This document shows positions 11,766-39,177 of a stretch of 39,177 nt of DNA, in pieces. The stretch comes from Candidatus Omnitrophota bacterium (GTDB taxonomy: Bacteria > Omnitrophota > Gorgyraeia > Zapsychrales > Zapsychraceae), in assembly GCA_022703565.1 (NCBI GenBank), contig JAKLDK010000005.1, positions 1 to 39,177 on the forward strand. The letters run 5' to 3'. A program made the position numbers and the translations under genes. Under the pieces are notes generated by a model that saw only the letters and a list, made by a program, of their open reading frames with translations, had not been told where the DNA came from and ran no database searches. How positions within the stretch are numbered: position 1 is the first letter of the stretch; each line of letters begins with the position of its first letter.

Positions 11766-11766
11766 A

Positions 11767-12174
11767 TTGAGGGTAGATAAATTTGTAAAATATATATTTT
11801 GTGCTATTGTCCTGGCCTTATCTTATATTAATTTGCAAATGAAGATTGTTGATTTGGCTTACAGCAATGATGCCAAAGAACATGAAATAATGGCTCTCAA
11901 TGAAGAGAATGGTGACATTAACTACAAGATTTTAACGCTTAAGTCAGCAAAGAATATTGGTTCAAAAATTATTAACGGGCAGTCTAATCTTAAATTTACC
12001 GATTCCGAACGTATTGTTTACCTTGATTTAAATGAACAAAGTGCTAAAAATAAGAAAACAGCAGCCGGGCAAAGCAATAAAAAGCAGGTTTCAACATTAA
12101 GCATTGCCGATAAAAATAAAGTTAAACAAAAAAGTGTAGTAGATAAGAACCTTGCGTTGAAGAAGCGTTATTAA
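11767..12174 (+). CDS. ftsL: FtsL-like divisome membrane protein
   Basis: Between rsmH and ftsI, the normal site of ftsL, lies a 135-aa protein with one membrane segment (about residues 6-25) and a heptad-patterned coiled coil (30-75). That is the bitopic layout of FtsL, the small divisome protein that with FtsQ and FtsB helps activate FtsWI. The Lys/Gln-rich tail from about 90 is not typical of FtsL. The start is TTG 11767, six bases after AAAGGA and one base after the rsmH stop. Sequence similarity is too weak to judge; the call rests on position and topology. Confidence 0.72.
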   Translation: MRVDKFVKYIFCAIVLALSYINLQMKIVDLAYSNDAKEHEIMALNEENGDINYKILTLKSAKNIGSKIINGQSNLKFTDSERIVYLDLNEQSAKNKKTAAGQSNKKQVSTLSIADKNKVKQKSVVDKNLALKKRY

Positions 12175-12226
12175 TTTGTCCGGTTAATAATTTTAAAAAT
12201 ATTTAATAGAAAAGTATTTCCGAAAA

Positions 12227-13903: not shown

Positions 13904-13904
13904 A

Positions 13905-16702: not shown

Positions 16703-16710
16703 GGAGCGGT

Positions 16711-17796
16711 ATGTTTTATTATTTATCACAGCTAAAGGATTTTTATTTCGGTTTTAATATTTTTCGATATATAACTTTTCGCGCGGCTATGGCGGCGGTG
16801 ACAACATTTCTTTTATGCCTTATTTTTGGCCCGTTTTTTATTAATAAATTGAAGAAAATGAAGATTCAGGAAATTGCCAAAAGGCATGATTGCCCGGACT
16901 TAGATAAATTTGTTGATTCTAAGCAAGGTACTCCGACGATGGGCGGGATTTTTATTGTTGGCAGCATAATAATATCGGTTTTACTCTGGGCGGATTTGGC
17001 TAACCGTTTTATCTTGCTCACGTTAATGACCTGCATCTGGTTGTATATTTTAGGCTTTATTGATGATTATTATAAATTAAAAGGCATCGGGAAAAGGGGT
17101 TTACCGAAACGGACTAAATTGCTTTGGGAAGTTTTATTGGGTTGTTTTATAGGCGCATATGTTTATTTTAGCCCGGAAACGACCACAAAGCTGGCAATAC
17201 CTTTTGTGAAAGATTTTATAATCACAATGGGTTGGTTTTATATCCCTTTTGTAGCGATTGTCCTTATCGGTACATCAAACGCGGTCAATCTTACCGACGG
17301 CTTAGATGGTTTAGCCATCGGATGCGTTTTAATTGTTAGCATTACTCTTGCGATATTAAGTTATGTGGCCGGTAACGTGAACTTCTCCGAATATTTATTG
17401 GTCCCTTATGTGAGCGGCGCCGGTGAATTAACTGTTTTTTGTGCGGCTTTGATTGGTGCGAGTTTAGGATTTTTATGGTTCAATTGTTTTCCGGCAACAA
17501 TTTTTATGGGCGATACCGGATCATTAGCTTTAGGCGGAACTTTGGGAGTTATTGCTGTTTTTATTAAGCAGGAAATGGTTTTGGCAATTGCCGGCGGAGT
17601 TTTTGTCGCGGAAGCTTTATCGGTTATCCTGCAGGTTGCGTCTTTTCGTTTATATGGCAAAAGGATTTTTAAAATGTCGCCTTTGCATCATCATTTCCAA
17701 TTTTGCGGATGGAAAGAATCGAAAATTATTATTCGATTCTGGATAATTGGGATTATTCTGGCGTTATTGGCCTTAACAACTTTAAAGATAAGATAA
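16711..17796 (+). CDS. mraY: Phospho-MurNAc-pentapeptide transferase MraY
   Basis: MraY transfers phospho-MurNAc-pentapeptide to undecaprenyl phosphate, giving lipid I at the inner membrane. The 361-aa polytopic protein (about ten hydrophobic segments) contains GTPTMGG, the Asp-rich motif GFIDDYYK, NAVNLTDGLDGLA, FMGDTGSLALGG and the C-terminal PLHHHFQ. These include the catalytic Asp and the metal-binding residues. A short ribosome site (AAGGAG) lies just before ATG 16711. Confidence 0.97.
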   Translation: MFYYLSQLKDFYFGFNIFRYITFRAAMAAVTTFLLCLIFGPFFINKLKKMKIQEIAKRHDCPDLDKFVDSKQGTPTMGGIFIVGSIIISVLLWADLANRFILLTLMTCIWLYILGFIDDYYKLKGIGKRGLPKRTKLLWEVLLGCFIGAYVYFSPETTTKLAIPFVKDFIITMGWFYIPFVAIVLIGTSNAVNLTDGLDGLAIGCVLIVSITLAILSYVAGNVNFSEYLLVPYVSGAGELTVFCAALIGASLGFLWFNCFPATIFMGDTGSLALGGTLGVIAVFIKQEMVLAIAGGVFVAEALSVILQVASFRLYGKRIFKMSPLHHHFQFCGWKESKIIIRFWIIGIILALLALTTLKIR

Positions 17797-17797
17797 T

Positions 17798-19087
17798 ATG
17801 CTAAATTTGAAAGATAAGAAAATAACAATTGTCGGCGCGCAAAAAAGCGGAATTGCGATTGCGGAGTTGGTTTTATCTTTGGGCGGAATCCCTAAGATGA
17901 CTGAAAAGAAAAAGCCAGAAGATTTGAATCCGGAAGTTTTAAGATTTTTGCAGAATAATAGTATTGCGCTTGAATGCGGCGGGCATACTAAAGAATTTGT
18001 GGCGGATAGCTATTTGCTTGTCTTAAGCCCGGGTGTGCGTTTTGACTTGCCGACGGTAATTTGGGCAAAAGAGAATAAAATACCGGTTTTAGGCGAAATA
18101 GAATTTGCTTTTCAATTTTGCGATAAACCAGTTATTGCTATTACTGGCAGTAATGGGAAGACAACTACAGTTACTTTGACTGATAAAATAATTAAGGAAG
18201 CGGGTTTCAAATCCTGCCTTTGCGGAAATATCGGAAGCCCATTCTCAAAGTTTGCTTTGCAATCAGACAGTTTTGATTATTTTGTTTTGGAGGTAAGCTC
18301 TTTTCAGATGGAATCGTTATTAGCTAAAGATAATAAGGAAGGTTTTAAGAAATTTAAACCTTTTATCGCGGCAATTCTAAACTTTAATCAAAATCATCTT
18401 GATCGGCATAAAGATATGGATGAATATTTTGAGGCGAAAGCCCGGATATTCCAGAATCAGTATAAAAATGATTTTGCGGTATTAAATCATTCTAGTGAGA
18501 AACTAAAATTTTTAGCCCAGAAATTAAGTTCAAAAGTAGTATTTTTTAACGACGATAGAGACAATAAATTCTCGGACAATCAAAATCATTTGGCGGTTTT
18601 AGCCATTGCCAATATCCTGAAAATAAAACCGGAAATTTGTAAGAAAGTTTTTTCGGAGTTTAAAGGGGTGGAACATCGTTTGGAATGGGTCAGGAATTTA
18701 GATGGAGTTGAATATATCAATGATTCTAAATCTACAACGGCCGAGGCGGGTGAATGGGCCATAAATAGAATGACTAAGCCGATTGTAATGATTTGCGGAG
18801 GCTCCGATAAACATCTTGATTATTCTTGGCTAAAAAAGTTAGTTAAGGATAAGGTGAAAACAATGATTGTTATCGGCGATATCAAGGGCCAGTTGAAAAA
18901 TACTTTTGCCGATGTTGTTAATGTTATCGAGGGCGAATCGTTTGAAGCGGCGGTAAAATTAGCGCAAAATAACTCGACGAATGGAGATTGCGTTTTGTTG
19001 AGCCCGATGACGGCTAGTTTTGATATGTTTGATAATTTTGAAGAGCGTGGCAAAGTGTTTAAACAGATAGTAAATAAACTTAAATAA
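17798..19087 (+). CDS. murD: UDP-MurNAc-L-Ala:D-Glu ligase MurD
   Basis: MurD adds D-Glu to UDP-MurNAc-L-Ala in the cytoplasm. The 429-aa protein has a Rossmann-like N-terminal domain (VGAQKSGIAIAELV), the P-loop ITGSNGKTTTVTLTD, NFNQNHLDRH, a Mur-ligase hinge with GVEHRLEWV, NDSKSTTAEA and ICGGSDKHLDY near the end. The order and the NDSKSTT motif separate it from the other Mur ligases of this cluster. One base separates it from mraY and one from ftsW. Confidence 0.95.
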   Translation: MLNLKDKKITIVGAQKSGIAIAELVLSLGGIPKMTEKKKPEDLNPEVLRFLQNNSIALECGGHTKEFVADSYLLVLSPGVRFDLPTVIWAKENKIPVLGEIEFAFQFCDKPVIAITGSNGKTTTVTLTDKIIKEAGFKSCLCGNIGSPFSKFALQSDSFDYFVLEVSSFQMESLLAKDNKEGFKKFKPFIAAILNFNQNHLDRHKDMDEYFEAKARIFQNQYKNDFAVLNHSSEKLKFLAQKLSSKVVFFNDDRDNKFSDNQNHLAVLAIANILKIKPEICKKVFSEFKGVEHRLEWVRNLDGVEYINDSKSTTAEAGEWAINRMTKPIVMICGGSDKHLDYSWLKKLVKDKVKTMIVIGDIKGQLKNTFADVVNVIEGESFEAAVKLAQNNSTNGDCVLLSPMTASFDMFDNFEERGKVFKQIVNKLK

Positions 19088-19088
19088 A

Positions 19089-20177
19089 ATGAAAAGTATC
19101 CGTACCTCTATCGCGACAATATTGATTTTGCTTTTGAGCATTGGGGTTATTATGATCTACAGCTCAAGCGGAATTTATGCCCGGCAGGAAATGGGAGATT
19201 CTACCTATTTTCTAGTACGGCATATTCTTTTTCTTTTTATCGGGTTTATTTTTATGTTTTTTAGCATGTCTTTTGACTATCGCCGGATACAACCATATTC
19301 AAAGGTAATTTTGTTGGTATCAATATTCTTGTTGGCTTTGGTATTGATTCCTCATATTGGGAAAACAAGTTATGGTGCCCGCCGTTGGTTTAAGATTGGG
19401 CCATTTAGTTTTCAGCCTTCAGAAATGGCTAAAATAGCGATGTTGATATATGTCGCTGATTTTCTTTCTCGGAAAAAAGAAAGAATTCTATATTTTTGGG
19501 AAGGTTTTGTTCCGCTTATCTTAGCGATGGGAGTTGTTTGCGTGCTGATAGTAAAGGAGCCTGATTTGGGAAATGCGGTTCTTATCGGGATGATTACGTT
19601 AATTGTTATGTATATCTCCGGAGCTAGTGTTTTGCATATTGCTTCTTTGGGGATAATGGCTCTGCCGGCATTATATTATTTAGTTTTTAGAGTGCCTTAT
19701 CGTTTAGCTCGTATGATGGCTTTTTGGAATCCGAATGAAGATGTAAAAGGGATTGGATTTCAACTCTATCAGTCACAGATTGCTTTGGGTTCGGGCGGAA
19801 TCTTTGGAGTTGGTTTAGGGCAAAGTAAGCAGAAACTATTATATTTGCCGGCGGCACATACTGATTTTATATTGTCGATTATTGGGGAAGAATTCGGTTT
19901 AATCGGGACATTGGCGGTAATCATTCTTTTTGTTTTATTTATTTGGCAAGGGGCAAGAATTGCAAAAAGGACAGTTGACCCGTTTGGTTATTATCTGGCC
20001 ATTGGAATAATTTCGATGATTGGATTGCAAGCAGTAATAAATATAGGCGTTAGTATTGGCGCTTTGCCGACCAAGGGCTTGCCGCTTCCTTTTGTAAGTT
20101 ATGGCGGTTCGGCTTTAATTTTTAACATGATGGCAGTAGGATTCCTACTAAATATTTCACGGATACAGGATTTATGA
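19089..20177 (+). CDS. ftsW: Septal peptidoglycan glycosyltransferase FtsW
   Basis: FtsW is the SEDS-family polymerase of septal glycan strands, working with FtsI. The 362-aa protein has about ten membrane segments and the family motifs GARRWFKIGPFSFQPSEMAK, VKEPDLGNAV, the GIGFQLYQSQIALGSGG loop, HTDFILSIIGEEFG and the C-terminal KGLPLPFVSYGGSAL. Location between murD and murG is standard for ftsW and argues against the related RodA. Its stop overlaps murG by four bases (ATGA). Confidence 0.95.
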   Translation: MKSIRTSIATILILLLSIGVIMIYSSSGIYARQEMGDSTYFLVRHILFLFIGFIFMFFSMSFDYRRIQPYSKVILLVSIFLLALVLIPHIGKTSYGARRWFKIGPFSFQPSEMAKIAMLIYVADFLSRKKERILYFWEGFVPLILAMGVVCVLIVKEPDLGNAVLIGMITLIVMYISGASVLHIASLGIMALPALYYLVFRVPYRLARMMAFWNPNEDVKGIGFQLYQSQIALGSGGIFGVGLGQSKQKLLYLPAAHTDFILSIIGEEFGLIGTLAVIILFVLFIWQGARIAKRTVDPFGYYLAIGIISMIGLQAVINIGVSIGALPTKGLPLPFVSYGGSALIFNMMAVGFLLNISRIQDL

Positions 20178-21253
20178 AAATTATATTAGCTACTGGTGGT
20201 TCAGGCGGGCATTTATTCCCGGCAATTAAAGTCGCGGAAAGTTTAAGGCAAAAAGGATATAAAACTCTTTTTATAGGTTCTTTTGCCATGACGAGGGACC
20301 ACTTAACAAAAAGAGGGTTGGATTATATTGATTTAAATTTAAAAGGTATAAATCTTAGAGATATAAAAGGTACAGTTCAGGCGATTTGGCTGTCTGTAAA
20401 AGCTTTTTTTACTACTGTAAGTTTGTTGAGAAAAGTTAAACCAAACGCGGTTTGTGGTTTTGGCGGATTTTCTTCATTCGCGGTTGTTTGTGCGGCAAAG
20501 TTTTTACGCATTCCCTGCCTAATTCATGAACAAAATGTTCTGCCCGGGCGAGCCAACAAGATATTGGCTAAGTTGGCGGATGAGATATTAATCAGTTTTA
20601 GCCAGACTTTTAATTATTTTAATAAAAAGAAAACAATGCATGTTGGTTGCCCTATTCAGGCTAAGAAGACTAATTGTTCTCGTGAGCAATTGTTGCGCCA
20701 ATTTAATTTGAGTGTGGATTTGAAAACTATATTTGTTTTCGGCGGCAGCCAGGGCAGCGTGCAGATTAATCGAGTTTTTACCAAAGCTTGCGAATTATTA
20801 AAAAAAGATTTTAATTTTCAGGTGATTCATTTATGCGGAAAGAATGATTATGAGCAAATGAAGAAATATTATTCAACCAGTAACATCAAATATGCTCTTT
20901 TTACATTTTTGGAAAATATTGCCGAAGCTTTGGAAGTTTGTGATTTAGTTATTTCTCGTTCGGGGGCTGTTTCTGTTACTGAAATATCCGCGTTTAAAGT
21001 GCCGAGCATATTAATTCCTTATCCGCATGCCTCCGGACATCAATTAGCTAATGCTAAGGTTTTAACCGATAAAGGGATGGCCTTCTTGCTCGAAGATAAA
21101 GATTTAACTGAGCATCGATTGCGCGATATTGTAATTAAGGCGATAAATAACCGGGAAAATATTATAAATAAGCTGAATTCCGATGATAATGATATTAATT
21201 TCTCGAATGCGGCTGAACGTATAAGTGAAGAAATGATAAAGTTAGCCCGATGA
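20174..21253 (+). CDS. murG: Lipid II synthase MurG (GlcNAc transferase)
   Basis: MurG adds GlcNAc to lipid I on the inner face of the membrane, making lipid II. The 359-aa GT-B enzyme shows the glycine-rich loop ATGGSGGHLFPA at the N-terminus, GFGGFSS, HEQNVLPGRANK, the GGSQGSVQINR motif opening the C-terminal domain, and SRSGAVSVTEISAF with PYPHASGHQLANA, the UDP-GlcNAc-binding region. AGGA lies before ATG 20174, and its stop overlaps the next gene by four bases. Confidence 0.96.
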   Translation: MKIILATGGSGGHLFPAIKVAESLRQKGYKTLFIGSFAMTRDHLTKRGLDYIDLNLKGINLRDIKGTVQAIWLSVKAFFTTVSLLRKVKPNAVCGFGGFSSFAVVCAAKFLRIPCLIHEQNVLPGRANKILAKLADEILISFSQTFNYFNKKKTMHVGCPIQAKKTNCSREQLLRQFNLSVDLKTIFVFGGSQGSVQINRVFTKACELLKKDFNFQVIHLCGKNDYEQMKKYYSTSNIKYALFTFLENIAEALEVCDLVISRSGAVSVTEISAFKVPSILIPYPHASGHQLANAKVLTDKGMAFLLEDKDLTEHRLRDIVIKAINNRENIINKLNSDDNDINFSNAAERISEEMIKLAR

Positions 21254-22035
21254 TTAAATATAAGAAATATGTTTTATGTTTGTTGTTTCTAACTATTTTA
21301 TTTATTCCGTACGGTTTTGCTGACGAGTGGAAAGAGTTTGGGCGGGGAAGGCATTTTAAGATTTATTATGATAAGGCTCCGGAAGATTTTGTAAAAAAGG
21401 TTAGTAAATATTCCGAGGAATCTTTTAACGAGATTATGCGGAATTTGGGATTTGCGAAATATAAAGAATGGAAATGGGATAAAGATATTAAGGTCTATGT
21501 TTATAACGATATGGATAGTTACCGGGAGGAAGCCTCGCATATTAAATGGTCGCACGGCTCAGCTTTGGTTCGAGAGAAGGTTATTTTAACGTTTCCTTCG
21601 GCACATGGATTTTTTGATTCAACGTTACCTCATGAATTAGGGCATATAATATTTCGGGAATTTATCGGGCAAGATACAGTTGTACCTTTGTGGTTGGAAG
21701 AAGGGGTTGCGATGTATCAAGAAACTGCGCGCAGGTTTGGCGCTGATGAGATTATCAAAAAAGCAATTTCCGAGGGGAAATTTATACCGCTTACCGAATT
21801 GTCTAACATGGGTTTACATAATAATACTGACCAGGAAAGGCTTTCTCTGTTTTATTCTGAGGCCGCCAGTATTATTAGTTTTATAATTAACGAATTGGGA
21901 GAATTTCGTTTTATGCGCTTTTGCCGGGAATTAGGCCAGGGGACAACTTTTGAAGAAGCCTTGAAATTAGTTTATACTCGTTTTAATAACGTGGAGCAAT
22001 TAAACAAAGCTTGGGTGGAATATATAAACAAATGA
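21250..22035 (+). CDS. Secreted gluzincin-type metallopeptidase (peptidase MA-like)
   Basis: A 261-aa protein with an N-terminal signal sequence (about residues 1-24, hydrophobic core VLCLLFLTILFI, possible cleavage near GFA-D), so it should act in the periplasm. The zinc motif HELGH (H128, E129, H132) is followed by PLWLEEGVAMY, where E151 fits the third ligand seen in peptidase MA/gluzincin proteins. It begins in an ATGA overlap with murG and ends in an ATGA overlap with murC, so it is translationally locked into the cell wall operon. A role in peptidoglycan or divisome protein processing is inference; the substrate is unknown. Confidence 0.8.
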   Translation: MIKYKKYVLCLLFLTILFIPYGFADEWKEFGRGRHFKIYYDKAPEDFVKKVSKYSEESFNEIMRNLGFAKYKEWKWDKDIKVYVYNDMDSYREEASHIKWSHGSALVREKVILTFPSAHGFFDSTLPHELGHIIFREFIGQDTVVPLWLEEGVAMYQETARRFGADEIIKKAISEGKFIPLTELSNMGLHNNTDQERLSLFYSEAASIISFIINELGEFRFMRFCRELGQGTTFEEALKLVYTRFNNVEQLNKAWVEYINK

Positions 22036-23426
22036 GCAAACAATATCATTTTATCGGAATAGGCGGTATCGGAATGGGGGCAATCGCTTCCATTTTATTA
22101 GACAAAGGTTTGGGGGTAAGCGGGTCGGATCTTGTTGAAAATAGGATAACTTTAAATTTAAAAGAAAAGGGCGCGAAAGTATTCTTGGGGCATAAGAAGG
22201 AGAATATCGACGGAGCTGATATTATTGTTTATTCGTCAGCTGTGAAAAAAGATAACCCGGAAGTAATTTCTGCCAAAGAAAAGAATCTACTGGTTATTCC
22301 CCGGGCAAAATTGCTGGCTGAATTAATGGAGGAACATACCGGTATCACAGTGGCCGGGGCGCATGGTAAAACTACAACGACATCAATGGTGGCCAATCTT
22401 TTAATAAAAGCAAAGTTTTGTCCAACAACTACTATCGGGGGTATATTAAAGAATATTGATACCAACGCGAGTTTAGGCAAAAGCGAATATTTTGTCTCGG
22501 AATTAGATGAAAGCGACGGTTCATTTTTATATTTCTCGCCGCAATATTCAATCATAACGAATATTGACCGCGAGCATATGGATTTTTATTTGACCTGGGA
22601 AAGCATTTTAAAAGCTTACGAGGATTTTATTAGAAAGACCAAAGAAGATGGTTTGATTATTGCTTGCGGTGATGATGTTAATTTAAATAATTTACTTAAG
22701 AAGTCTAACCGCAAATTTATCAGTTATGGTTTTACGCAAGTTAATGATTATTTGGCGCTTAATATCAAAAGTGAAGGTTTTACGACTAATTTTGATTGTT
22801 TTAAATCCGGCGAGAAATTGGGCAACATCACCTTGAATATTCCGGGTCGGCATAATGTTTTAAATGCTTTAGCGGCAATTGTCTTAGGGCTGGAATTAAG
22901 AATAGATTTTAATTTGATAAAAAAGAGTTTGGCGGAGTTTGCCGGAGTTAGACGGCGGTTAGATGTCAAAGGCCAAGTAAATGATATTATGGTAATAGAT
23001 GATTATGGGCATCATCCGACCGAAATCAAGGCGACACTGGCGGCTGTTAATTCCCTGAGGAAAGAAAGGCTTATAACTGTTTTTCAACCGCATCGCTATA
23101 CCCGGCTTTTTCATTTGATGGAAGATTTTTCTACGAGCTTATTAGATTGCGATTTTCTGGTTATTACTGATATTTATGCGGCCAGTGAAAAACCCATAGA
23201 AAATGTTAGTTCGGAAAATTTATGTGATAAAATAAAAGAAAAAGGGAATAAAAACGTAATATATCTGCCCAAGGATAAGATATTATCCTTTTTGCTTGAT
23301 TTTATAAAGCCGGGAGATATTGTATTAACTTTAGGAGCGGGCGATATTACAAAAATATCAGATCAAATAGTAGATAAATTAAACCAGCGTCTATCCAAAA
23401 AAGAGGAGAAAAAAGATGAGCGATAA
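22032..23426 (+). CDS. murC: UDP-MurNAc:L-Ala ligase MurC
   Basis: MurC adds L-Ala to UDP-MurNAc, the first step of stem-peptide assembly. The 464-aa protein starts with the glycine-rich FIGIGGIGMGAIA, then GSDLVENRIT, the P-loop VAGAHGKTTTTSM, SELDESDGSF, IDDYGHHPTEIKAT and FQPHRYTR, all specific to MurC. ATG 22032 was chosen because it overlaps the previous stop and gives the normal N-terminus; an upstream in-frame start (22011) would add seven residues. It overlaps ddl by 11 nt. Confidence 0.96.
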   Translation: MSKQYHFIGIGGIGMGAIASILLDKGLGVSGSDLVENRITLNLKEKGAKVFLGHKKENIDGADIIVYSSAVKKDNPEVISAKEKNLLVIPRAKLLAELMEEHTGITVAGAHGKTTTTSMVANLLIKAKFCPTTTIGGILKNIDTNASLGKSEYFVSELDESDGSFLYFSPQYSIITNIDREHMDFYLTWESILKAYEDFIRKTKEDGLIIACGDDVNLNNLLKKSNRKFISYGFTQVNDYLALNIKSEGFTTNFDCFKSGEKLGNITLNIPGRHNVLNALAAIVLGLELRIDFNLIKKSLAEFAGVRRRLDVKGQVNDIMVIDDYGHHPTEIKATLAAVNSLRKERLITVFQPHRYTRLFHLMEDFSTSLLDCDFLVITDIYAASEKPIENVSSENLCDKIKEKGNKNVIYLPKDKILSFLLDFIKPGDIVLTLGAGDITKISDQIVDKLNQRLSKKEEKKDER

Positions 23427-24395
23427 TCTTTACCGGTTTGGACGTATTGGTGTTTTGATGGGCGGTTATTCTTCCGAGCGGGAAGTTTCTTTGAAATCAG
23501 GTACTGCAATTTATGAATCTTTGCTGTCGCAAGGGCTTAATGTTGCGGCTGTTGATATTAATACTAGTGATTTGAATAAAATAAAATTGCAGCTTTTAGA
23601 GTCGCGCATTGATATTGCTTTTATTGCTTTGCATGGCAAATTGGGCGAGGATGGAGTAATCCAGTCAATTTTAGAGGATTTATGCATTTCTTATGTCGGT
23701 TCGGGCGTTAAGGCCAGCCAATTAGCGATTAATAAATTAACAGCGCATCAAGTTTTTAGGGAAAACAATATTCCGACTGCGAAGTATATTTCTCTTTTAA
23801 ATACGGATAAGATTAATTTGGAGAAAATAATTAATGACTTGGATGGATTTCCTTTGGTTATAAGCCCGCATCTGAAGGCTCAAGCATTGGTATTAGCATT
23901 GCCAGAAATATTAATGAGTTTGAACTCGGATTAACCGAAGCTTTTAAATATGACAATAGTGTTTTAGTAGAGCAATTCATAAAAGGACGAGAGCTCACGG
24001 TTGGAATTCTAGGCAATAAAGCGTTGCCGATTGTTGAAATAATTCCAAAACGCGAATTCTTCGATTTTACGGCAAAATATCAAAAAGGTTTAACGGATTA
24101 TATTGTCCCGGCGCAAATTGATGATGAGATAAAAGTGCGTATGCAAAATTTGGCTCTGGAAGCGCATCAGGCGTTAGGTTGCCGTGATTTCTCCCGGGTT
24201 GATATTATTTTAAGCGATGAGGGAATAGGTTATGTACTGGAAGTAAATACTATTCCCGGTTTTACTGCAACCAGTTTGTTACCTAAGGCGGCTAAGGCCG
24301 ATAATATTAGTTTTAATCAACTTTGTTTTTGTTTGATAGAAATGGCATATGGCAAGAAAAAGATTGAAAATCAAAATATCGCCGTCAGCAATTAA
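23416..24395 (+). pseudogene. ddl: D-Ala-D-Ala ligase Ddl, interrupted by a one-base frameshift
   Basis: Ddl joins two D-Ala residues for MurF. The first 149 codons (23416-23862) give a normal N-terminus (VLMGGYSSEREVSLKSG, ALHGKLGEDG, YVGSGVKAS, FPLVI). After 23862 the frame must change by one base to continue as K-P-A-S-E-G-S-S-I-G-I-S, the expected ATP-binding loop, then ELTVGILG, IIPKREFFDFTAKY and VLEVNTIPGFTATS to the stop at 24395. One A is missing from a Lys codon in the run ATA-AG. Restoring it gives 326 aa, normal for Ddl. GAGGAG precedes ATG 23416. An assembly error is likelier than true decay, since the rest is well conserved. Confidence 0.88.
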
Positions 24396-25107
24396 GATTT
24401 TTATTGTTCCTCTGCTTGTTTTTGGGATCAGTTTCGGAATTTTTCAGGGAATTTTATATTGGGCCTCACATAGCGAATATTTTAGAATTAAAGCGGTTGT
24501 GATTGACCCGGCATTGCAGTTTATTAATCTGCGCGACGTAAATTATTTAATCGGCGATAATATTTTTGCTGTAAATTTGGAAAGGCTAGAGAGAAAAGTC
24601 GCCAACAAGTATCCTCAGGTTTCCGATTTAAAAGTTACCAAGAAGTTTCCCGATAGAATTTATTTTGAAGCTAGCAAAAGAAATCCTTTGCTTCAGGTTC
24701 TTTTATCCGGCCGGATTTTAACCTTGGATGAGAACGGTATATTGCTTTCTACCATAACTAAAAAAGATGAGCGTCTGCCGCTGGTGGAAGGGTTAAAATC
24801 GTCGGATAAAACAATCCGGCTGGGGTATTATATGGGGGGAAAAGATTTAAAGGCAGTGATAAACTTGGTTAAAGAATTTAATCAAACAAATTCTGCGCAA
24901 ATATGCCGGATTAATACTGTCAATGTGTCTAATATCTCCAAGATTGAGATGGTTTTGTCCAATAAATTAACAATCATCGTCGATAAAGACGATATAAAGC
25001 GCCGGATGAAGATATTGTCGTTTCTGCTTAATCAAGGGCAAATTAATTTAGAAGAAACAAAGTATATCGACTTGCGTTTTAAAGAACCGATTCTGGGGAA
25101 GAAATAA
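24349..25107 (+). CDS. ftsQ: Cell division protein FtsQ
   Basis: FtsQ is a bitopic divisome protein linking early and late division proteins. The 252-aa product has a basic cytoplasmic start, one membrane segment (about 16-38), a POTRA domain (about 45-115: a FRIKAVVIDP strand, then INLRDVNYLIGDNIFAVN and VSDLKVTKKFPDRIYFEA) and an FtsQ beta domain (LDENGILL, LPLVEG). This order is diagnostic. It begins 47 bases before the ddl stop, and its own stop overlaps the ftsA start (TAATG). Confidence 0.9.
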   Translation: MARKRLKIKISPSAIKIFIVPLLVFGISFGIFQGILYWASHSEYFRIKAVVIDPALQFINLRDVNYLIGDNIFAVNLERLERKVANKYPQVSDLKVTKKFPDRIYFEASKRNPLLQVLLSGRILTLDENGILLSTITKKDERLPLVEGLKSSDKTIRLGYYMGGKDLKAVINLVKEFNQTNSAQICRINTVNVSNISKIEMVLSNKLTIIVDKDDIKRRMKILSFLLNQGQINLEETKYIDLRFKEPILGKK

Positions 25108-26348
25108 TGTTTAGAAAAGTTATGAAACAAAAAGTGTTTTGCGGACTAGACGTTGGAACAAAGACTTTGAAGGCTGCGTTAATAAAAGTTGAGAATAATA
25201 ATCAAAAAGAAATCTTGGCGTTATCTGACCAAAAAACTTATGGGATAAAAGATAGCGCTATTTCTAATTTAAGCGAAGTGTCTGAATGCATTCAGAAGGT
25301 TCTAGATGAATTGCTAAAAATGAATAAAGCCAAATTTAAAATAGTTAACATCGGAATCAATGCGAGTTTAGTTAATATCCGTCGGACGACAAGTGTAATA
25401 CCGCTTTTAGATAAGAATGGAAAGATAATTTCCGCTCGTGATATAGATTTGGTTAATAATAATGCCAAATTAATCGGGATGAAGTTGGAAGAAGAGGTTT
25501 TACATAATTTGCCGGAATATTATATTGTTAACGATGATAATCAGGCCATCAATCCAACCGGGCTGTATGCGAAGAAGCTTGGCGTAGTATCTCTTTTGGC
25601 AATAACCAATGTTAATTTTCTGCGAAATTTAACCCGGGCCGTTAATCAGGCCGGATATGAGGTTGATAAAATTACTTTTAATGACTATAGCGCGTCTGAT
25701 GTTGTTTTAAGCGAAGATGATAAAAAAGAAGGCGTCCTTCTGATTGATATAGGATCTCAAATTACTAGCCTGGTATTTTTTAAAGATGGAGTCTTTAAAT
25801 TCTTAGAGAAAATAAGTATCGGGAGTGATAATTTTACCTTGAAAATCGCAGAGAAACTGAATCTTAATTTTGATTTAGCTGAGGAGATCAAGAAGACTTA
25901 TGCGATTGCCTCGAGTTCGGAAAAATATAGTCAGGAAGAAATTTTAATTAAAAGAGAGAACAATTATTATCCGATAAAACGGGAGTTGATATATCAGGCG
26001 ATTGAAGGCGAAATTTATTTTATGATTGAAGCGATTAAGGAGATAATTGTTAAAAATGGGATTGCTAGTCAAATTAACAAAGGGATAACTTTTATCGGCG
26101 GAGGTTCGTTGTTGCCGGGCTTGATTGAGAAGATTGGCGCGGAGGTAAAGCATACGGTAAAACTGGGTAAAGCCACGGGGATTTCATATAAAAATATTTA
26201 TAAAGGCCCATCCTATGCTTCGGCTATCGGCATAGCTTCTAGCGGTATTAACAAAGGTCTTATCAAAAAGATTATCTCTTCTGAAAAAACTTCAGCTTGG
26301 CAACAGGCGGTCAATAGGTTTAAAGAATTATATTTTGAATACTTTTAG
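25107..26348 (+). CDS. ftsA: Cell division protein FtsA
   Basis: FtsA is the actin-like protein that anchors FtsZ filaments to the membrane. The 413-aa protein shows the ATPase signatures CGLDVGTKTLKAALI (phosphate 1), LLIDIGSQITSLVFF (phosphate 2) and FIGGGSLLPGL (adenosine), with an FtsA-type 1C insertion between the first two. It ends in an amphipathic segment rich in aromatic and basic residues (WQQAVNRFKELYFEYF), the expected membrane-targeting helix. No ftsZ follows; the next gene is on the other strand and the two stop codons overlap. Confidence 0.92.
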   Translation: MFRKVMKQKVFCGLDVGTKTLKAALIKVENNNQKEILALSDQKTYGIKDSAISNLSEVSECIQKVLDELLKMNKAKFKIVNIGINASLVNIRRTTSVIPLLDKNGKIISARDIDLVNNNAKLIGMKLEEEVLHNLPEYYIVNDDNQAINPTGLYAKKLGVVSLLAITNVNFLRNLTRAVNQAGYEVDKITFNDYSASDVVLSEDDKKEGVLLIDIGSQITSLVFFKDGVFKFLEKISIGSDNFTLKIAEKLNLNFDLAEEIKKTYAIASSSEKYSQEEILIKRENNYYPIKRELIYQAIEGEIYFMIEAIKEIIVKNGIASQINKGITFIGGGSLLPGLIEKIGAEVKHTVKLGKATGISYKNIYKGPSYASAIGIASSGINKGLIKKIISSEKTSAWQQAVNRFKELYFEYF

Positions 26349-32073: not shown

Positions 32074-32607
32074 ATGCTAGATGAACAAGCTGAAATTGAG
32101 GCGGCTCAAGAACAAAAGCAACAAGATATTGATATCCGGCTTTTTGTTTGTTTCAAACTTGCCCACGAAGAATACGCGCTTGATATCCAGTCCATCCAAG
32201 AAGCAATAAAAGAATTCAGAATAACTCCTGTTCCCCAAATGCCGGAATTTTGCCTGGGAATAATCAACAATAGAGGCAGTGTTATTCCTGTCTTTGACTT
32301 AAGAAAGAAATTCCATTTAGATCCCAAGCCTTTTGATGCCAATACAAGAGTTTTGGTTGCTTTGGTAGACAATATTACCATAAGCCTTGTCGTCGATGAA
32401 GTCTTGGATAATATTAAATTCGAAACTTCTAAGATTGATCCCGCGCCAACAGTTCGAATGAAAATTGAAAGAGAATATGTTGAAGGTTTGGGTGAAATCG
32501 ATAAAAGGATGATTATTATTCTTAATTTATCTAAAATGCATGAATTTATCAAAAAAGAAATCGCGGATTATCAGAATAAAATAACAGAAAAAAGACACGA
32601 TGCATAA
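32074..32607 (+). CDS. cheW: Chemotaxis coupling protein CheW
   Basis: CheW links chemoreceptors to the kinase CheA. The 177-aa protein has a single CheW domain: VCFKLAHEEYALDIQSIQE (about 26-44), PVPQMPEFCLGIINNRGSVIPVFDLR, and IVVDEVLD-like strand (LVVDEVLDNI) through the C-terminal strand RMIIILNLSKM. An N-terminal Gln/Glu-rich segment of about 20 residues is additional. A G-rich ribosome site (AAGGGGGG) precedes the ATG. No cheA, cheR, cheB or cheY lies in the window; the kinase must be encoded elsewhere or past the right edge. Confidence 0.92.
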   Translation: MLDEQAEIEAAQEQKQQDIDIRLFVCFKLAHEEYALDIQSIQEAIKEFRITPVPQMPEFCLGIINNRGSVIPVFDLRKKFHLDPKPFDANTRVLVALVDNITISLVVDEVLDNIKFETSKIDPAPTVRMKIEREYVEGLGEIDKRMIIILNLSKMHEFIKKEIADYQNKITEKRHDA

Positions 32608-32618
32608 AAAGGAGACAT

Positions 32619-33557
32619 ATGTCTGCTAAAGTTACTGATAAAAAGAGTGATATTTTATTGGAAGCTGGAACTAACGAGTTGGAAATAGTTGAATTTTCTC
32701 TAGGTAATTCTTTGTATGGCATGAATATTGCTAAGGTTCGAGAGATTATAAAGTCTGACATATCTATTGTCCCTGTTCCCGATTCCCACTCGTCTATTGA
32801 AGGCGCTATAAATTTAAGAGGCAAAATAATTCCGGTAGTAAATTTAGGCCGGCATCTTAATGAAGATATAAAGCTTGATAAGAGAATAAGCCGAATAATT
32901 ATTTCAGAATTTAACCGTATTATTGTCGGGTTTTTAGTAAGTTCAGTTGCAAAAATTCACCGCATTTCTTGGCGGCAGGTTGAAAAGCCTTCGGATATGC
33001 TCCAAACTGAACAAGGTTATGCCGTAGGTATCGTTAAAATAAAAGATAAGGTTTTGTTCATTCTTGATTTTGAAAAGATAGCTGCGCATATAAACCCTCG
33101 CGCTAATATTCAGTCTCCGGAAACAATGAAGTTTAAGGCCCAAGAAATTTCTTTCAACCGCGCGGCAAAAGTTGTTCTCGTCGCCGAAGATTCAGATTTT
33201 ACTAGAAACATGATAATTGATTATTTGGGTGAGGCTGGTTATCGGGTCATCTCGACTACGAATGGGGAAGAAGCTTGGGCTCAGATTGCCAAGAGCATTG
33301 ATTCTCCAAATTTTCAGAAAATTGATGATACGATTAATTTAGTTATTACTGATATTGAAATGCCCCAAATGGATGGCTTGCATCTTATTAAGAAAATAAA
33401 AGAAAATTCCAAGACAAGAAAATTGCCTTGCATTGCTTTTTCTTCTATGATTTCGCCGGAATTATCCGCTAAATGTAAAAGCATTGGAAGTGACGGAGAA
33501 ATTTCTAAACCAGAAATCGAAAAGCTAGTTTCAGTTGTCGATAACAAGGTATTATAA
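32619..33557 (+). CDS. cheV: CheV-like CheW-receiver fusion protein
   Basis: CheV couples receptors to CheA and adapts signalling by phosphorylation. The 312-aa protein has a CheW domain (about 18-160: VEFSLGNSLYGMNIAKVREII, EGAINLRGKIIPVVNL) and a response-regulator receiver domain (about 184-310). The receiver is complete: acidic pair E190-D191, phospho-acceptor D245 (ITDIEMPQMDG), SS at 275-276 and K297 (SKPEI). AAAGGAG precedes ATG 32619. It directly follows cheW and precedes a PilZ gene with a 13-bp gap, so the three likely share a transcript. Confidence 0.9.
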   Translation: MSAKVTDKKSDILLEAGTNELEIVEFSLGNSLYGMNIAKVREIIKSDISIVPVPDSHSSIEGAINLRGKIIPVVNLGRHLNEDIKLDKRISRIIISEFNRIIVGFLVSSVAKIHRISWRQVEKPSDMLQTEQGYAVGIVKIKDKVLFILDFEKIAAHINPRANIQSPETMKFKAQEISFNRAAKVVLVAEDSDFTRNMIIDYLGEAGYRVISTTNGEEAWAQIAKSIDSPNFQKIDDTINLVITDIEMPQMDGLHLIKKIKENSKTRKLPCIAFSSMISPELSAKCKSIGSDGEISKPEIEKLVSVVDNKVL

Positions 33558-33570
33558 AAGAGGTGCAAGT

Positions 33571-34014
33571 ATGAAAATTATGAAACAAAAACCTCAGCTC
33601 GTTGAAAGAAGAAAGTTTTTAAGGATTCCTTCGGAAGATGTTTTGAATTGTAAGGTTTTCTCAGTGGTTGATTTGGTTGAAGAGGTCAAGGGATATGAGA
33701 TTCAAGCTATAATGAAAAATATTAGTGCCGGAGGGGTTCTCTTTGAATCAAACAGCCGATATGAAGTCGGCTCAATTCTCAAGCTTTCAATTGATGTTAA
33801 AGGATGGGAAAACTTTAAGCCGGAGTTTTTTAAGGGAGATGTACTTTCTAGAAAACAACCATTGGTTGTTTTGGCTAATGTGGTTAGAGTTGAGGTTGTT
33901 GAACCTTACTCGAAATATGATATTGGTGTTTGTTTTTCAGCAATTGATGAAGGTCATCGCTGGGCGATGATAAAATATGTTGATAGGAAAGTAAAAGAAA
34001 AAACAGTTTTTTAG
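33571..34014 (+). CDS. PilZ-domain protein (c-di-GMP effector)
   Basis: A 147-aa protein consisting of one PilZ domain. The c-di-GMP-binding signatures are present: R14-K-F-L-R18 (the RxxxR motif) near the N-terminus and N50-I-S-A-G-G55 (the D/NxSxxG motif). It therefore should bind c-di-GMP, which links second-messenger control to the chemosensory genes around it. ATG 33571, with AGAGGTG just upstream, was chosen; an upstream in-frame ATG would start inside the cheV-like gene. Its stop codon touches the 5' arm of the structured RNA candidate that follows. Confidence 0.88.
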   Translation: MKIMKQKPQLVERRKFLRIPSEDVLNCKVFSVVDLVEEVKGYEIQAIMKNISAGGVLFESNSRYEVGSILKLSIDVKGWENFKPEFFKGDVLSRKQPLVVLANVVRVEVVEPYSKYDIGVCFSAIDEGHRWAMIKYVDRKVKEKTVF

Positions 34015-34284: not shown

Positions 34285-34800
34285 ATGAAAAAGATATTAT
34301 TAACAGTTGCGGTTTTTGCTATGTTAGCTTTTGTCATTTCTACTATAGCTATGGCTGAAGATCTAACAGCGCAATCTTGCAAAGACAAAGCAATTGCTGC
34401 TGGTAAGCTTCTAGAAGCCGAAGGCGAAGCAGCTATTGCTAAGCTTAAAGATGCGGCTGGCGAATTTAGCTGGGCTGGCGGAGAAGGCTATATTTGGGTT
34501 CATAATTTAGATGGCATGATGGTTATGCATCCTAAAAAGCCGGCTATGGATGGAACGGCTCTTCTAGAAATCCGCGATGTTAACGGTGTTTACCTTTTTG
34601 CGGCGATGAATGAAATTGCTGGAGAAAAGGGTGCGGGTTGGGTAGCTTATGCATGGCCTAAACCGGGCGCTGAAACACCTTCGCCAAAGGTTTCTTATGT
34701 TGTAAAAGCTGGTAATTATGTAGCTGGTGCTGGAATTTATGATGTTACAAAAGATGATATCAAAAAGCAATTTCCAGAAGATCCAATTTATGAGGAATAA
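34285..34800 (+). CDS. Secreted stand-alone Cache-domain protein
   Basis: A 171-aa protein with a clear signal peptide (KKILLTVAVFAMLAF core, likely cleavage after AMA at residue 23). What remains is a helix and one Cache-type sensor fold: YIWVHNLDGMMVMHP, ALLEIRDVNGVYLFAAM, GAGWVAYAWPKPG, VSYVVKAGNYVAGAGIYD. In receptors this fold is usually the periplasmic ligand-binding part of an MCP or kinase; here it stands alone with no membrane anchor or output domain. It sits 182 bp before an MCP gene that lacks a Cache domain. AAAGGAG precedes the ATG. Confidence 0.82.
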   Translation: MKKILLTVAVFAMLAFVISTIAMAEDLTAQSCKDKAIAAGKLLEAEGEAAIAKLKDAAGEFSWAGGEGYIWVHNLDGMMVMHPKKPAMDGTALLEIRDVNGVYLFAAMNEIAGEKGAGWVAYAWPKPGAETPSPKVSYVVKAGNYVAGAGIYDVTKDDIKKQFPEDPIYEE

Positions 34801-34834
34801 TTGAGTTCAATTTGTTTGGATGCTAATTAGTTCT

Positions 34835-34875
34835 AAGGAGTACTTGTTCCCTAATTATAGGGGCAGGTACTCCTT
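34835..34875. repeat. Long hairpin after the Cache gene
   Basis: AAGGAGTACTTG (34835-34846) pairs fully with CAGGTACTCCTT (34864-34875), counting one T-G wobble, and the interior CCCTA/TAGGG pairs again. No T-run follows, so it is not a classic terminator. It may protect the 3' end of the Cache mRNA, allowing more secreted protein than receptor. Confidence 0.6.
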
Positions 34876-34938
34876 GGTTATCAGAAATAATACATTGTTT
34901 TGATATTTAAATAGATTTTCATTCTAAGATGCCTCAGC

Positions 34939-34954
34939 AGTATTTTAAAATACT
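34939..34954. promoter_or_regulatory. Perfect 16-bp palindrome before the MCP gene
   Basis: AGTATTTTAAAATACT is an exact palindrome 28 bp before the first MCP start. It suits a dimeric repressor or activator, or a transcription-start-proximal hairpin. No -35 and -10 pair is clear around it. Confidence 0.35.
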
Positions 34955-34982
34955 CTAGGAATTAGGAATAAGGAGACATGAT

Positions 34983-37115
34983 ATGAAATTAAACTTAAGC
35001 AAGAAACTAATTGCCGGATTTCTTGGTGTGGCTCTTTTAGTTGCTGTGGCTGGAGGAGTCGGAATGAAAATGGCTAATTTAATTGCCGGAGCAGGTAATA
35101 CTATTGCTAAAGAAAAAACTCCATCACTCCGGGCTGTTATGGAAGCAAAAGCACTAGTTGCTGAATCGCAAAAGAATTTAACGCAACTGACTAATGCTTT
35201 AGCTGGCCTAGGCCCGATAAAAGAAAGATTGTTGGAAAATATTGGCGATGCGCAAATGCGTGTGGAGATGCTGTTGTTTGGAACAAATTCAAAAGAGTTT
35301 AAAGAATCTATTAGCGGACAAATGTATGTTAAAGACGGAATGACAATTACGGTTCCCAAAGGTACGCCAAAGGGTATTGAAATAGCAACACAATCCGAAG
35401 AAAAATTAAAAACATTTTCTAAAGATGTCGAAGCTCTAATTAAAAATCAGGATGAATTTGCTAAATATGCTGCGCATACAGATAAGGGTGTTTTTGCTTT
35501 AGATGTTTTTATAAATATGGTTCAATTGCAGCATTTAGATTGGATTAAGAATTTAAAAGATGCGGTAAATATGGGTAATACTTATACCGGACAAACTGAC
35601 CATACCAAGTGTTTTATGGGCAAATGGCTGGTATCATACAATGTAGATGACCCTAAATTAACAGAAATAATTGAAAAATTTAAAAAGAATCATGAAAAGC
35701 TTCATGGCTTAGCTATAGAAGTTAATGGAGTAAAAGATGGCCAAGAGAAAATTAAGTTGCTCGCTAAAAAAGGTTCTGTTATAGGTAAAATTGAAAATAA
35801 TTTCAATGAATTACAAAAATACGTTCAAACAAAGTATGGTAAATTAAGCGCGGAAAAACAAGCTATTATGGATAAAGTTAATACATCGGTTGAAGAGCTA
35901 AATAAGGTTTTTGAAGAGCTTGTAAAACAAGTTGAGAATGAGGCTGATGAAGCTATTAAAAAAGCTGATGCGGCTAAAATCCAAGCGAACACCATTTTGC
36001 CGGTTGTTACTATTATTGCAATTATTATAGCTATTGTTTTAGGTGTTGTTTTGAGCGGTGGCATTGTGAAACCGATACAAAAGATTGTCGTATTAGTCAA
36101 GCAAATTGCCGAGGGTGATTTGACCCAAAAAGTCAGAATTGAAACCGGTGATGAATTGGAAGATTTAGGAAAGAATATTAGTTCGATGACGGATAGCTTG
36201 AATCATATCGTTTCGGATGTCAAAGGCTCGGCGGAACAAATTGCTGCTGCGGCAGAACAAATTTCTGCTTCTACTCAGAAAATTTCTGATGGAGCCCAAC
36301 AGCAATCAGCCAGTTTTGAGGAATTATCATCATCTGTCCAAACTAATGCGGATAGCTGTCGTTCAGCAAATGATTTATCACAGGACGTTTCTAGGAATGC
36401 CGAAAAGACTGATGCGGCTATGGATAGCACGGTTGAGGCGATGAATCAGATGGAAAAAAGTTCAGCTCAAATTGCGGAGGCGGTTTCTCTTATTACTGAT
36501 ATTGCTGATCAAACAAATCTTTTGGCTTTGAATGCCGCAATTGAGGCCGCTCGTGCGGGTGAGCATGGAAAAGGTTTTGCTGTTGTTGCCGATGAGGTAA
36601 GGCAATTAGCAGAGCGTTCGGCTTCGTCTGCAAAAGATATAGAAAACTTAATTAGAGATAGCAAGAAACAAGTTGAGAACGGAGTTTCAATTTCTAAAAC
36701 TGCCGGAGATAATTTGAAGAATATTATCGGCAATATTAAGAAAGTTGCTGATGGAATTGGCTCTGTTTCAAGCGCAACGCAAGAGCAGGCAGCTTCTATG
36801 GAGGAAAACACCTCTATTACTGAATCTAACGCGGCAGCAGCGGAAGAGTTAGCGGCAGCAGCGGAAGAGTTAGCGGCTCAGGCTGATACTTTACAAAAAA
36901 TGGTTGCTAGTTTTAAAGTTAAAGAAGGGATAGAAAAAGATTCGTTAAATTTAAAAAATACTGAGAATATTGTTAGTGAACCGGTTGCTGTTCCAGCGTT
37001 AAAACCAAAGAAAGATTTTGAGAAGAAGGTAGCTAAAAAAGACGAAGCTAATGAGCCCAAGGTTTTTAGGGATAAAAAAATAAAAGGTGAAGAAGAGAAA
37101 TTAAGAATTGGGTAA
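34983..37115 (+). CDS. Methyl-accepting chemotaxis protein with periplasmic CZB domain
   Basis: This 710-aa receptor has TM1 (about 8-30), a periplasmic helical region (31-335), TM2 (about 337-358), HAMP (359-411) and the signalling domain. The signalling hairpin tip is conserved ([21 protein letters not shown], about 507-527, then [18 protein letters not shown]). Inside the periplasmic region a CZB zinc-binding pattern is visible: H184 (HLDW), D206-H-x-x-C210 with GKW, and H237-x-x-x-H241. No Cache domain is present. The C-terminus is a Lys/Glu-rich tail without a CheR-binding pentapeptide. AAGGAG precedes the ATG. A 21-bp exact tandem repeat adds a heptad (617-630). Confidence 0.9.
36831..36872 (+). 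repeat. 21-bp exact tandem duplication in the MCP gene
   Basis: Two identical 21-bp units (36831-36851, 36852-36872) each encode the heptad AAAAEEL in the descending helix of the signalling domain. The repeat is in frame and adds exactly seven residues. Confidence 0.9.
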
Positions 37116-37268
37116 TTCTTCAATCGTAAATTTTAAAAATATAGTTGCTTCGTGAGAAACTGAAAGGAGGTGGGACGAGGTTCTCGTTTCCTAAACACAA
37201 TTTTAATTATTAATTACATAAACAAAGTTTTAAAACATTAGATGTAAGAAAGGAAATTGGAGGCTAAG

Positions 37269-37757
37269 ATGAAATCAATCAAAATTATTTTAAGTGTTAT
37301 GTTGGCAGCTGTGATGGTTGTATCTTTTTCTCAAGCTGTAATGGCTCAAGATGCAGCAGCAAAAGTTAAAGATGCAATGAAATTGCTTCAAGAAAAAACA
37401 GCAGCTCTTGGTGCAGCCAAAGTTGATGGTGTAAGTTTGTTTTTTGGTGCAGATGAAATGAATGGCAATTATGATGTTGTTGATGAAGTTGCCGAAGCCC
37501 AAAGCTGTACCGCAACTCTTTTTGTTAAGAAAGACGATGGTTTTATGAGAATTAGTACCAATGTTATCAAAGATGGAAACAGAGCCGTTGGCACTATGCT
37601 TGACCCAGCTGGCGCAGCTTTCGCCGCTATTTCTAAAGGCGAAGCTTATTATGGCCAAGTTGATATCTTAGGTGACAAATACGAAGCTGGTTATGAGCCG
37701 ATTAAAGACGCTAGTGGCGCAATCGTTGGTGTTTTTTATGTCGGATTTAAATTATAA
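37269..37757 (+). CDS. Second secreted stand-alone Cache-domain protein
   Basis: A 162-aa protein with a signal peptide (SIKIILSVMLAAVMVVSF core, likely cleavage after VMA at residue 26) and one Cache domain: a helix, then CTATLFVKKDDGFMRISTNV, RAVGTMLDPAGAAFAAISKG, EAYYGQVDILGDKYEAGYEPIKD and GAIVGVFYVGF. This wording matches the Cache_3-Cache_2 type found in many MCP sensor regions. It again has no membrane anchor or output domain, and again an MCP gene follows, 33 bp downstream. ATG 37269 was chosen because GGAGG lies just upstream. It is only distantly similar to the first Cache protein, so the pair is not a simple recent duplication. Confidence 0.85.
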   Translation: MKSIKIILSVMLAAVMVVSFSQAVMAQDAAAKVKDAMKLLQEKTAALGAAKVDGVSLFFGADEMNGNYDVVDEVAEAQSCTATLFVKKDDGFMRISTNVIKDGNRAVGTMLDPAGAAFAAISKGEAYYGQVDILGDKYEAGYEPIKDASGAIVGVFYVGFKL

Positions 37758-37790
37758 ATTACATCGTAAACAGGCAAAGGGGACGAGGAT

Positions 37791-39177
37791 ATGTTTAAAA
37801 ATATGAAACTGGGAGTTAAGATCGGAGGAGGTTTTGGCCTTCTAATTGTCTTAACAATTGCTTTGGGCGCGATTGCTTTTATTAGCATGGATGCAGTTAA
37901 AAAAGCAACTTTTTCTCTCGCCCAAGAAAGTGTTCCGGAAGTAAAGCTCTCAAATAATATCGAAAGATTTTCTCTCCGGGCTCTTTCGGAAATGCAAAGA
38001 TTTTCATTGAGCGAAAAACCAAAGTTTTTGCAAGGAGTTCGCGACAATCTATCCCAAGTTAAAATTTATTTGGAAGAAGCAAAAAAACATGGTGCCTCAT
38101 CCCCCCGCCTCGTAAAACTTAAGGAATCAGCTGAACAATCAATTACTATGGTTGCCGAATATGAAAAAGTATTAAGCCAAATGGGATCTTTAAATGATCA
38201 ATTGGCTTTGGAGCGTACAAAAGCAGAAGAAGCTTCAAAGAAATATTCGGAATCAATAAAAAGTTTTCTTAAGGTACAAACATCTGAGATGGAATCGGAA
38301 GTTAATATTGGAGCGAAAGCTGATAAATTAATTGTTCGTTTGAAGAAAATCAAATTAGTGAGTGATATAACTGGCTTAGGTACTGAAATAGATAACTTGT
38401 TCTGGCGATCCCAGGCTCGAAGGGATTTGAAGGTTTTAGATCCTGTTAATTCTATTTTTGATAAAGCAAATAAAGATTTTCAGGATTTGGATGCCATAAC
38501 CAAAGAAAAGAATTTGAAGAAAATAATAGTTGAGTGTAAAGCAGCAGCTGATAGCTATGGCAATGCTATAAAATCGTTTATTTCGAAATGGCAAGCGAAG
38601 GAAGAAGCTACTAAGGAAGGAGATAAATTAGCCGCTGAAGTTTTAAAGTTGGCTAAAGGCGCGTCTTTAATTGGCATGGAAGATATTAATAAGGCCTCGG
38701 ACACTTCATCAAAAGCTTTGACCAAGGCTTCTTTAAGCCTATTGATTGGAATAATCGTAATTTTAATTATCGCAATTATTATTGCCTTGATTATTACCGG
38801 TTCAATTGTAAAGCCGGTTAAAAAAGTTGTAGATGTTTTAACAATAATGTCGCAGGGAGATCTAAGGAATAGAACCAAGGTTGATTCTAAAGATGAAATT
38901 GGGATGTTAGCTAAAACGATGAATGATTTCTCGGATAAATTAGTACAAATGTTACAGCAGATAGGAGAAGCTAGCGAACAATTAACCGGAGCGACTGAAG
39001 AAATACAATCTTCGTCTCAGCAATTAGCCGACGGAGCGCAACAGCAATCAGCTAGTTTTGAAGAGTTGACGAGCTCGATTCAAGCTTCGGCGGAAAATGC
39101 CCGCAAAGCCGACGGATTATCTAAAGATGCCAGCCAAAATGCTGAAAAAACTATTACTGCGATGGATAGTACCATTG
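37791..39177 (+). CDS. Second methyl-accepting chemotaxis protein, cut by the window end
   Basis: The open frame runs from ATG 37791 past the right edge (462 codons seen). There is TM1 (about 8-33: a GGGFGLLIVLTIALGAIAFI-type segment), a long all-helical periplasmic region (about 35-310) resembling the helical bimodular sensor type, TM2 (about 317-340), HAMP (SIVKPVKKVV onward) and the start of the signalling domain with [15 protein letters not shown], almost identical to the first MCP. No Cache domain is visible. AAAGGGGA lies before ATG 37791; ATG 37803 is an alternative start. The 3' end, hairpin tip and tail are missing. Confidence 0.88.
   Translation, partial: MFKNMKLGVKIGGGFGLLIVLTIALGAIAFISMDAVKKATFSLAQESVPEVKLSNNIERFSLRALSEMQRFSLSEKPKFLQGVRDNLSQVKIYLEEAKKHGASSPRLVKLKESAEQSITMVAEYEKVLSQMGSLNDQLALERTKAEEASKKYSESIKSFLKVQTSEMESEVNIGAKADKLIVRLKKIKLVSDITGLGTEIDNLFWRSQARRDLKVLDPVNSIFDKANKDFQDLDAITKEKNLKKIIVECKAAADSYGNAIKSFISKWQAKEEATKEGDKLAAEVLKLAKGASLIGMEDINKASDTSSKALTKASLSLLIGIIVILIIAIIIALIITGSIVKPVKKVVDVLTIMSQGDLRNRTKVDSKDEIGMLAKTMNDFSDKLVQMLQQIGEASEQLTGATEEIQSSSQQLADGAQQQSASFEELTSSIQASAENARKADGLSKDASQNAEKTITAMDSTI

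Follow-up and report, generated by a model that had tools for sequence, protein, structure and literature searches.

Successive gene pairs for secreted Cache proteins and Cache-less chemoreceptors in an Omnitrophota genome suggest split chemoreceptors

The stretch of DNA analysed here (the window, 39,177 nucleotides) makes up all of contig C131 in the 1.87 Mb genome of a Candidatus Omnitrophota bacterium. Towards its right end are two successive gene pairs, each consisting of a gene for a small secreted Cache protein and a gene for a chemoreceptor (MCP) that lacks a Cache domain (Table 1). An earlier note had picked out these pairs from the letters alone; the open reading frames lie where it placed them, and the Pfam matches agree. 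The Cache and the MCP of each pair are separate open reading frames with their own starts and stops, 182 nt apart in the first pair and 33 nt apart in the second. MCP2 is incomplete, running off the end of the contig. Co-folding of Cache2 and MCP2 as one chain, read through the in-frame stop that separates them, was considered and dropped, since with so short a linker the Cache would end up at the wrong receptor end.

Table 1. Genes and features around the two Cache/MCP pairs (positions in the window)
Feature	Position	Strand	Description	Basis
CheW	32074..32607	+	CheW, 5' of both pairs	
CheW-REC	32619..33557	+	CheV-like, 5' of both pairs	
PilZ	33568..34014	+	PilZ-domain protein, between CheW-REC and Cache1	
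Cache1	34285..34800	+	Secreted single Cache (sCache_2/dCache_2 type)	ORF and Pfam matches
Inverted repeat	34835..34875	+	AAGGAGTACTTG / CAGGTACTCCTT, in the Cache1-MCP1 gap, without a T-run	
MCP1	34983..37115	+	TM, all-helical ectodomain with CZB, TM, HAMP, MCP signalling domain; no Cache	
Cache2	37269..37757	+	Secreted single Cache (sCache_3_3 type)	ORF and Pfam matches
MCP2	37791..39176	+	TM, all-helical bimodular ectodomain of ~290 aa, TM, HAMP, start of signalling domain; no Cache	

The inverted repeat is possibly an mRNA stabiliser or attenuator. Promoter and terminator scans of this region gave nothing that exceeded shuffled sequences. Elsewhere in the window, at 10833-26348, is a dcw cell-wall and division cluster (mraW, a PBP gene, mur genes, mraY, ftsW, ftsQ and ftsA) in which no ftsZ-sized ORF follows ftsA.

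Cache1 (171 aa) matches the Pfam families dCache_2 (E = 1.4e-23) and sCache_2 (E = 2.1e-18), and Cache2 (162 aa) matches Cache_3-Cache_2 (E = 5e-32) and sCache_3_3 (E = 1.7e-29). The two proteins are therefore clearly different, as had been noted. That one pair is a copy of the other as a unit is ruled out by these distinct families and by the MCP1 and MCP2 ectodomains, which are 14% identical in a joint alignment. In the two proteins Pfam finds nothing but Cache domains, with no two-lobed solute-binding-protein fold. Both also lack a CXXCH heme motif, which rules out a stand-alone heme Cache, and each has one cysteine.

Both proteins start with a hydrophobic segment leading to an AxA-type site, AMA/ED in Cache1 and VMA/QD in Cache2, and no lipobox cysteine or second TM segment was seen when the sequences were read by eye. 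They are predicted to be secreted and anchor-less, with the signal peptide likewise assigned by eye. If the N-terminus instead stayed uncleaved, the Cache would be membrane-anchored and could associate there with the MCP in a hetero-oligomer. Most copies do have one TM-like segment, and the cleavage sites were judged by eye, but AxA-type sites are present in Cache1, Cache2 and their relatives, and sequence comparison shows that, set against the TM-linked helix in fused receptors, the helix following the site is far shorter, so that we regard an anchored Cache as very unlikely.

The Cache2 profile matches the PDB entries 8py0 (E = 7e-24) and 8py1 (E = 2e-23). In the formate receptor PacF, modification of R142, T145 or T158 alters formate binding (PMC12501870). 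The equivalents in Cache2, identified by motif and spacing, are R94, T97 and T109, a triad that is invariant in a 14-row Cache2 alignment and that each of the 26 paired Cache2 copies examined also has. The Cache1 profile matches 4k08 and 5g4y. Seven residues contact propionate in PscD (PMC5062169), and their counterparts in Cache1 (Y69, W71, H82, F105, Y122, W124 and K135) are kept in 4/4 MCP-paired Cache1 copies. Judged from this residue conservation, the ligand pockets of the soluble Caches are predicted to be intact. Because the PacF triad and the PscD contact residues are kept, Cache2 probably binds formate and Cache1 probably a C2/C3 carboxylate, namely acetate, glycolate, propionate or pyruvate.

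Neither MCP has a Pfam match to Cache: MCP1 matches CZB (184-247), HAMP and MCPsignal, and MCP2 matches HAMP. AlphaFold models of the ectodomains, built from alignments of homologous partner MCPs, are nearly all helix for MCP2 (pLDDT 86.5) and nearly all helix with two short strands for MCP1 (pLDDT 86.6). The periplasmic regions are thus helical or CZB-type, as the earlier reading had it. In Foldseek searches against the PDB, the MCP2 ectodomain came closest to the HBM domain of McpS (E = 3e-4, TM-score 0.79 by target length), followed by the TorS sensor domain from TorS-TorT complexes; it is modelled as a helical bimodular fold, and Pfam HBM is not listed for it at E 0.1. For the MCP1 ectodomain the nearest structures, by weak matches, were PilJ and McpS. 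When 30 partner ectodomains were scanned with Pfam, the matches were 4HB_MCP_1 (23), TarH (9), CZB (3) and HBM (2), along with CHASE3, and none of the 25 families listed is a Cache family. In MCP1, the CZB domain is flanked by TM1 and TM2 and is hence periplasmic; the residues in it that are likely to bind zinc (H, C, H, H) are kept in the window and in genome G197 and lost in G078.

Cache2 was used to scan 84,980 species genomes, in which its nearest relatives were from Omnitrophota MAGs, and surveys covered 384 Omnitrophota, 250 Burkholderiales, 194 Desulfobulbales and 40 Riflebacteria-phylum genomes. With the Cache2 profile, scores exceeded 190 bits for the stand-alone relatives and reached at most 170 bits for fused ones. 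Of the 30 stand-alone copies with readable flanks, 27 have a directly adjoining MCP gene in the same orientation: six in Omnitrophota (the window, L051, L052, L053, L054 and L190), one in Verrucomicrobiales (L056), 11 in Desulfobulbales, one in Riflebacteria (L059) and eight in Burkholderiales. All evaluable copies were paired in the surveys of Desulfobulbales (11/11) and Burkholderiales (3/3). The three unpaired copies are L050, L055 and L060, the last with an MCP ~0.8 kb off. Two loci that end at a contig end (L065 and L178) were left out of the count, and the receptors of L064 and L066 are near-identical and thus do not represent independent pairs. The MCP gene comes first in L052, L054, L179 and L190, and L053 has one MCP on each side; the order flips between genomes and the pairing persists.

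The genome of the window encodes four MCP signalling domains plus the incomplete MCP2, and by informal judgement two of five MCPs beside two stand-alone Caches is far above expectation. With 27/30 copies paired across several phyla and only four to five MCPs in the window's own genome, chance adjacency is ruled out. Pseudogenes or domain debris are excluded by the conservation across phyla. Nor is it credible that the Caches are remnants of broken Cache MCPs: one Omnitrophota copy, in G061, does appear broken, but the others are intact, share 42-60% identity between phyla and have invariant ligand residues, and the partner MCPs are full-length. In the G061 copy (L032, G061:C142:27507-27785), residues 5-68 and 127-160 are found in two overlapping pieces.

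Full-length Omnitrophota relatives of Cache1 were collected above 180 bits. An MCP1-type receptor is found 3' of Cache1 in four Omnitrophota genomes, that of the window and G078, G197 and G307, with ectodomains in the latter three that are 32-35% identical to MCP1. In G307, a CheW-REC gene lies 5' of the pair, as in the window. Two genomes, G018 and G409, have a Cache1 relative without an adjoining MCP. The search across genomes that the earlier note had called for thus found that Cache2 keeps its adjacency in several phyla and Cache1 in several families of Omnitrophota, and the idea survives the note's first refuting condition, a lack of conserved adjacency in relatives. Its suggestion that the pairing was kept or acquired more than once also holds, since the Cache families pair independently and G078 has both pairs on different contigs. 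The Cache2 of G078, too, sits with an MCP1-type receptor, from which it follows that Cache type and ectodomain type recombine.

One could imagine that the Cache is a promiscuous soluble co-receptor for several MCPs or kinases and that adjacency reflects joint regulation only. Orphan Caches would fit, as would G023, with an MCP on both sides of its Cache, and G248, where genes for an OmpR-type regulator and a histidine kinase, in place of an MCP, lie close behind a Cache1-like gene (L145 1468-3504), possibly a kinase version of the arrangement. Promiscuity is nevertheless improbable, given that in most genomes a single ectodomain family is found beside a given Cache clade.

The earlier note had also proposed that the phylogenies of paired proteins be compared. 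Trees were made for Cache2, the partner ectodomain and the partner signalling domain from 24 pairs. Cache distances correlate with those of the ectodomain at 0.71 and of the signalling domain at 0.55, and at 0.56 and 0.11, respectively, when each is controlled for the other. In the eight pairs with a 300-aa ectodomain, the difference is pronounced (r = 0.90 for the ectodomain and 0.28 for the signalling domain), whereas four-helix-bundle pairs show no ectodomain preference (0.81 and 0.87). The evidence that Cache tracks the ectodomain more than the signalling domain is therefore confined to the 300-aa class. In the Cache tree and the ectodomain tree alike, the Riflebacteria pair clusters with pairs from Desulfobulbales, which suggests that Cache and receptor were transferred together.

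These correlations bear on the idea that the Cache is a co-expressed periplasmic ligand buffer or scavenger that does not dock, while the MCP ectodomain senses a ligand of its own. McpS, the nearest fold to MCP2, binds malate and succinate directly in PDB structures, and MCP2-type receptors exist without a Cache. However, a co-regulated buffer needs no co-variation with the ectodomain over the signalling domain, as is found in the 300-aa class, and we consider a buffer unlikely.

Among 20 MCP2-type ectodomains in Desulfobulbales, Cache2 adjoins three, a different soluble Cache adjoins four and 13 have none, so this ectodomain has no strict need for a Cache. A third type of soluble Cache, sCache_2-like and ~150 aa long, is encoded directly 5' of MCPs. 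It is found with MCP2-type helical receptors in Desulfobulbales (L206 2726-3259, L207 2602-3081, L208 987-1454 and L210 792-1286), and with Cache-containing MCPs in Omnitrophota (L010, L011 and L024). Secreted proteins with two to four tandem Cache domains and no signalling domain also occur (L027 1477-3204 in G108:C50, G157:C12 and G263:C20). A plasmid search found orphan Caches in Bradyrhizobium and Methylobacterium, without an MCP.

As a pairing of genes, split receptors are well supported by the sequences compared here; as a physical complex they are hypothetical, if plausible. Such pairs are known from five or more bacterial phyla, so that a detachable subunit in the periplasm has probably taken over the sensing. 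We consider it reasonably probable that each Cache acts as a periplasmic co-receptor of the formate or acetate type that docks on the adjoining helical MCP. The small Cache would bind a short carboxylate, formate for Cache2 and acetate, glycolate, propionate or pyruvate for Cache1; the loaded protein would then dock on the helical ectodomain of its neighbour and alter MCP signalling, much as for TorT with TorS or maltose-binding protein with Tar. The best-scoring fused relatives of Cache2 are the membrane-distal half of Cache_3-Cache_2 MCPs, and Cache2 is the counterpart of the membrane-distal sensing module of such receptors, detached from its TM tethers. This reading is favoured by the conserved adjacency and ligand residues, by the co-variation with the ectodomain in the 300-aa class, by the resemblance of the MCP2 ectodomain to TorS and by the four Desulfobulbales genomes in which the MCP2-type ectodomain adjoins another soluble Cache. 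Counting against it are the orphans L050, L055, G018, G409 and those on the two rhizobial plasmids, which may serve distant or several receptors or act otherwise, as well as the 13 MCP2-type ectodomains with no Cache, the direct ligand binding of McpS and the four-helix-bundle class, in which the signalling domain follows the Cache at least as closely as the ectodomain does. In characterised couples of solute-binding protein and receptor, the genes adjoin for 10/11 kinases and 3/11 chemoreceptors (PMC11113362), which makes adjacency suggestive of partnership and not a requirement for it.

It is conceivable, if still tentative, that soluble Caches, of at least three kinds of family, are in general detachable sensor subunits of the periplasm, paralleling the solute-binding proteins. 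In several phyla they would serve as plug-in modules for helical-bundle MCPs, and in one genome possibly for a histidine kinase, and would move together with the receptor ectodomain. Four-helix-bundle and HBM-like receptors are common, and to our knowledge most have no known ligand. If the pairs work as proposed, ligand screens on isolated receptor domains would overlook sensing by soluble Caches, and an adjoining Cache gene would supply a testable ligand prediction, such as formate or acetate. A pair is also present in a named strain, Aquabacterium lacunae KMB7 (L061), in which the model is directly testable.

Among the extracellular sensor domains of bacteria, no family is larger than Cache, and over 90% of Cache domains are fused to a signalling protein (PMC12889525). 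No description of Cache-MCP gene pairs or split receptors was found in the literature searched, whose coverage left most subscription papers outside. The canonical Cache chemoreceptor carries Cache and signalling domain on one polypeptide, unlike the pairs described here. Cache2 is homologous to PacF and the sCache_3_3 ligand-binding domains of 8py0 and 8py1 and keeps the R/T/T triad, but the PacF domain lies inside an MCP and Cache2 is a separate secreted protein. Likewise, Cache1 keeps 7/7 pocket residues of the sCache_2 carboxylate receptors PscD, McpP and Adeh_3718 (5g4y and 4k08), in which the Cache is located between TM1 and TM2 of the MCP. The sCache_heme proteins and Tll0287 also lack a fused signalling module, but have a CXXCH motif and a c-type heme, and stand-alone heme Caches have been given redox-related roles (PMC12889525). 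McpS shares the fold of the MCP2 ectodomain, but binds its ligand directly and belongs to HBM, under which MCP2 is not listed.

The closest parallels are receptors that depend on a binding protein: Tar, which uses maltose-binding protein, Trg, which uses the ribose- and galactose-binding proteins, and TorS, which uses TorT. These likewise combine a separate secreted binder lacking a signalling domain with a receptor that has a helical ectodomain, and the fold of the MCP2 ectodomain is near that of TorS, which docks periplasmic TorT. The binders differ in that Cache1 and Cache2 are single Cache domains rather than two-lobed proteins, and their docking is putative. By this analogy, the pairs would represent binding-protein-dependent chemoreception with the Cache fold as the binder.
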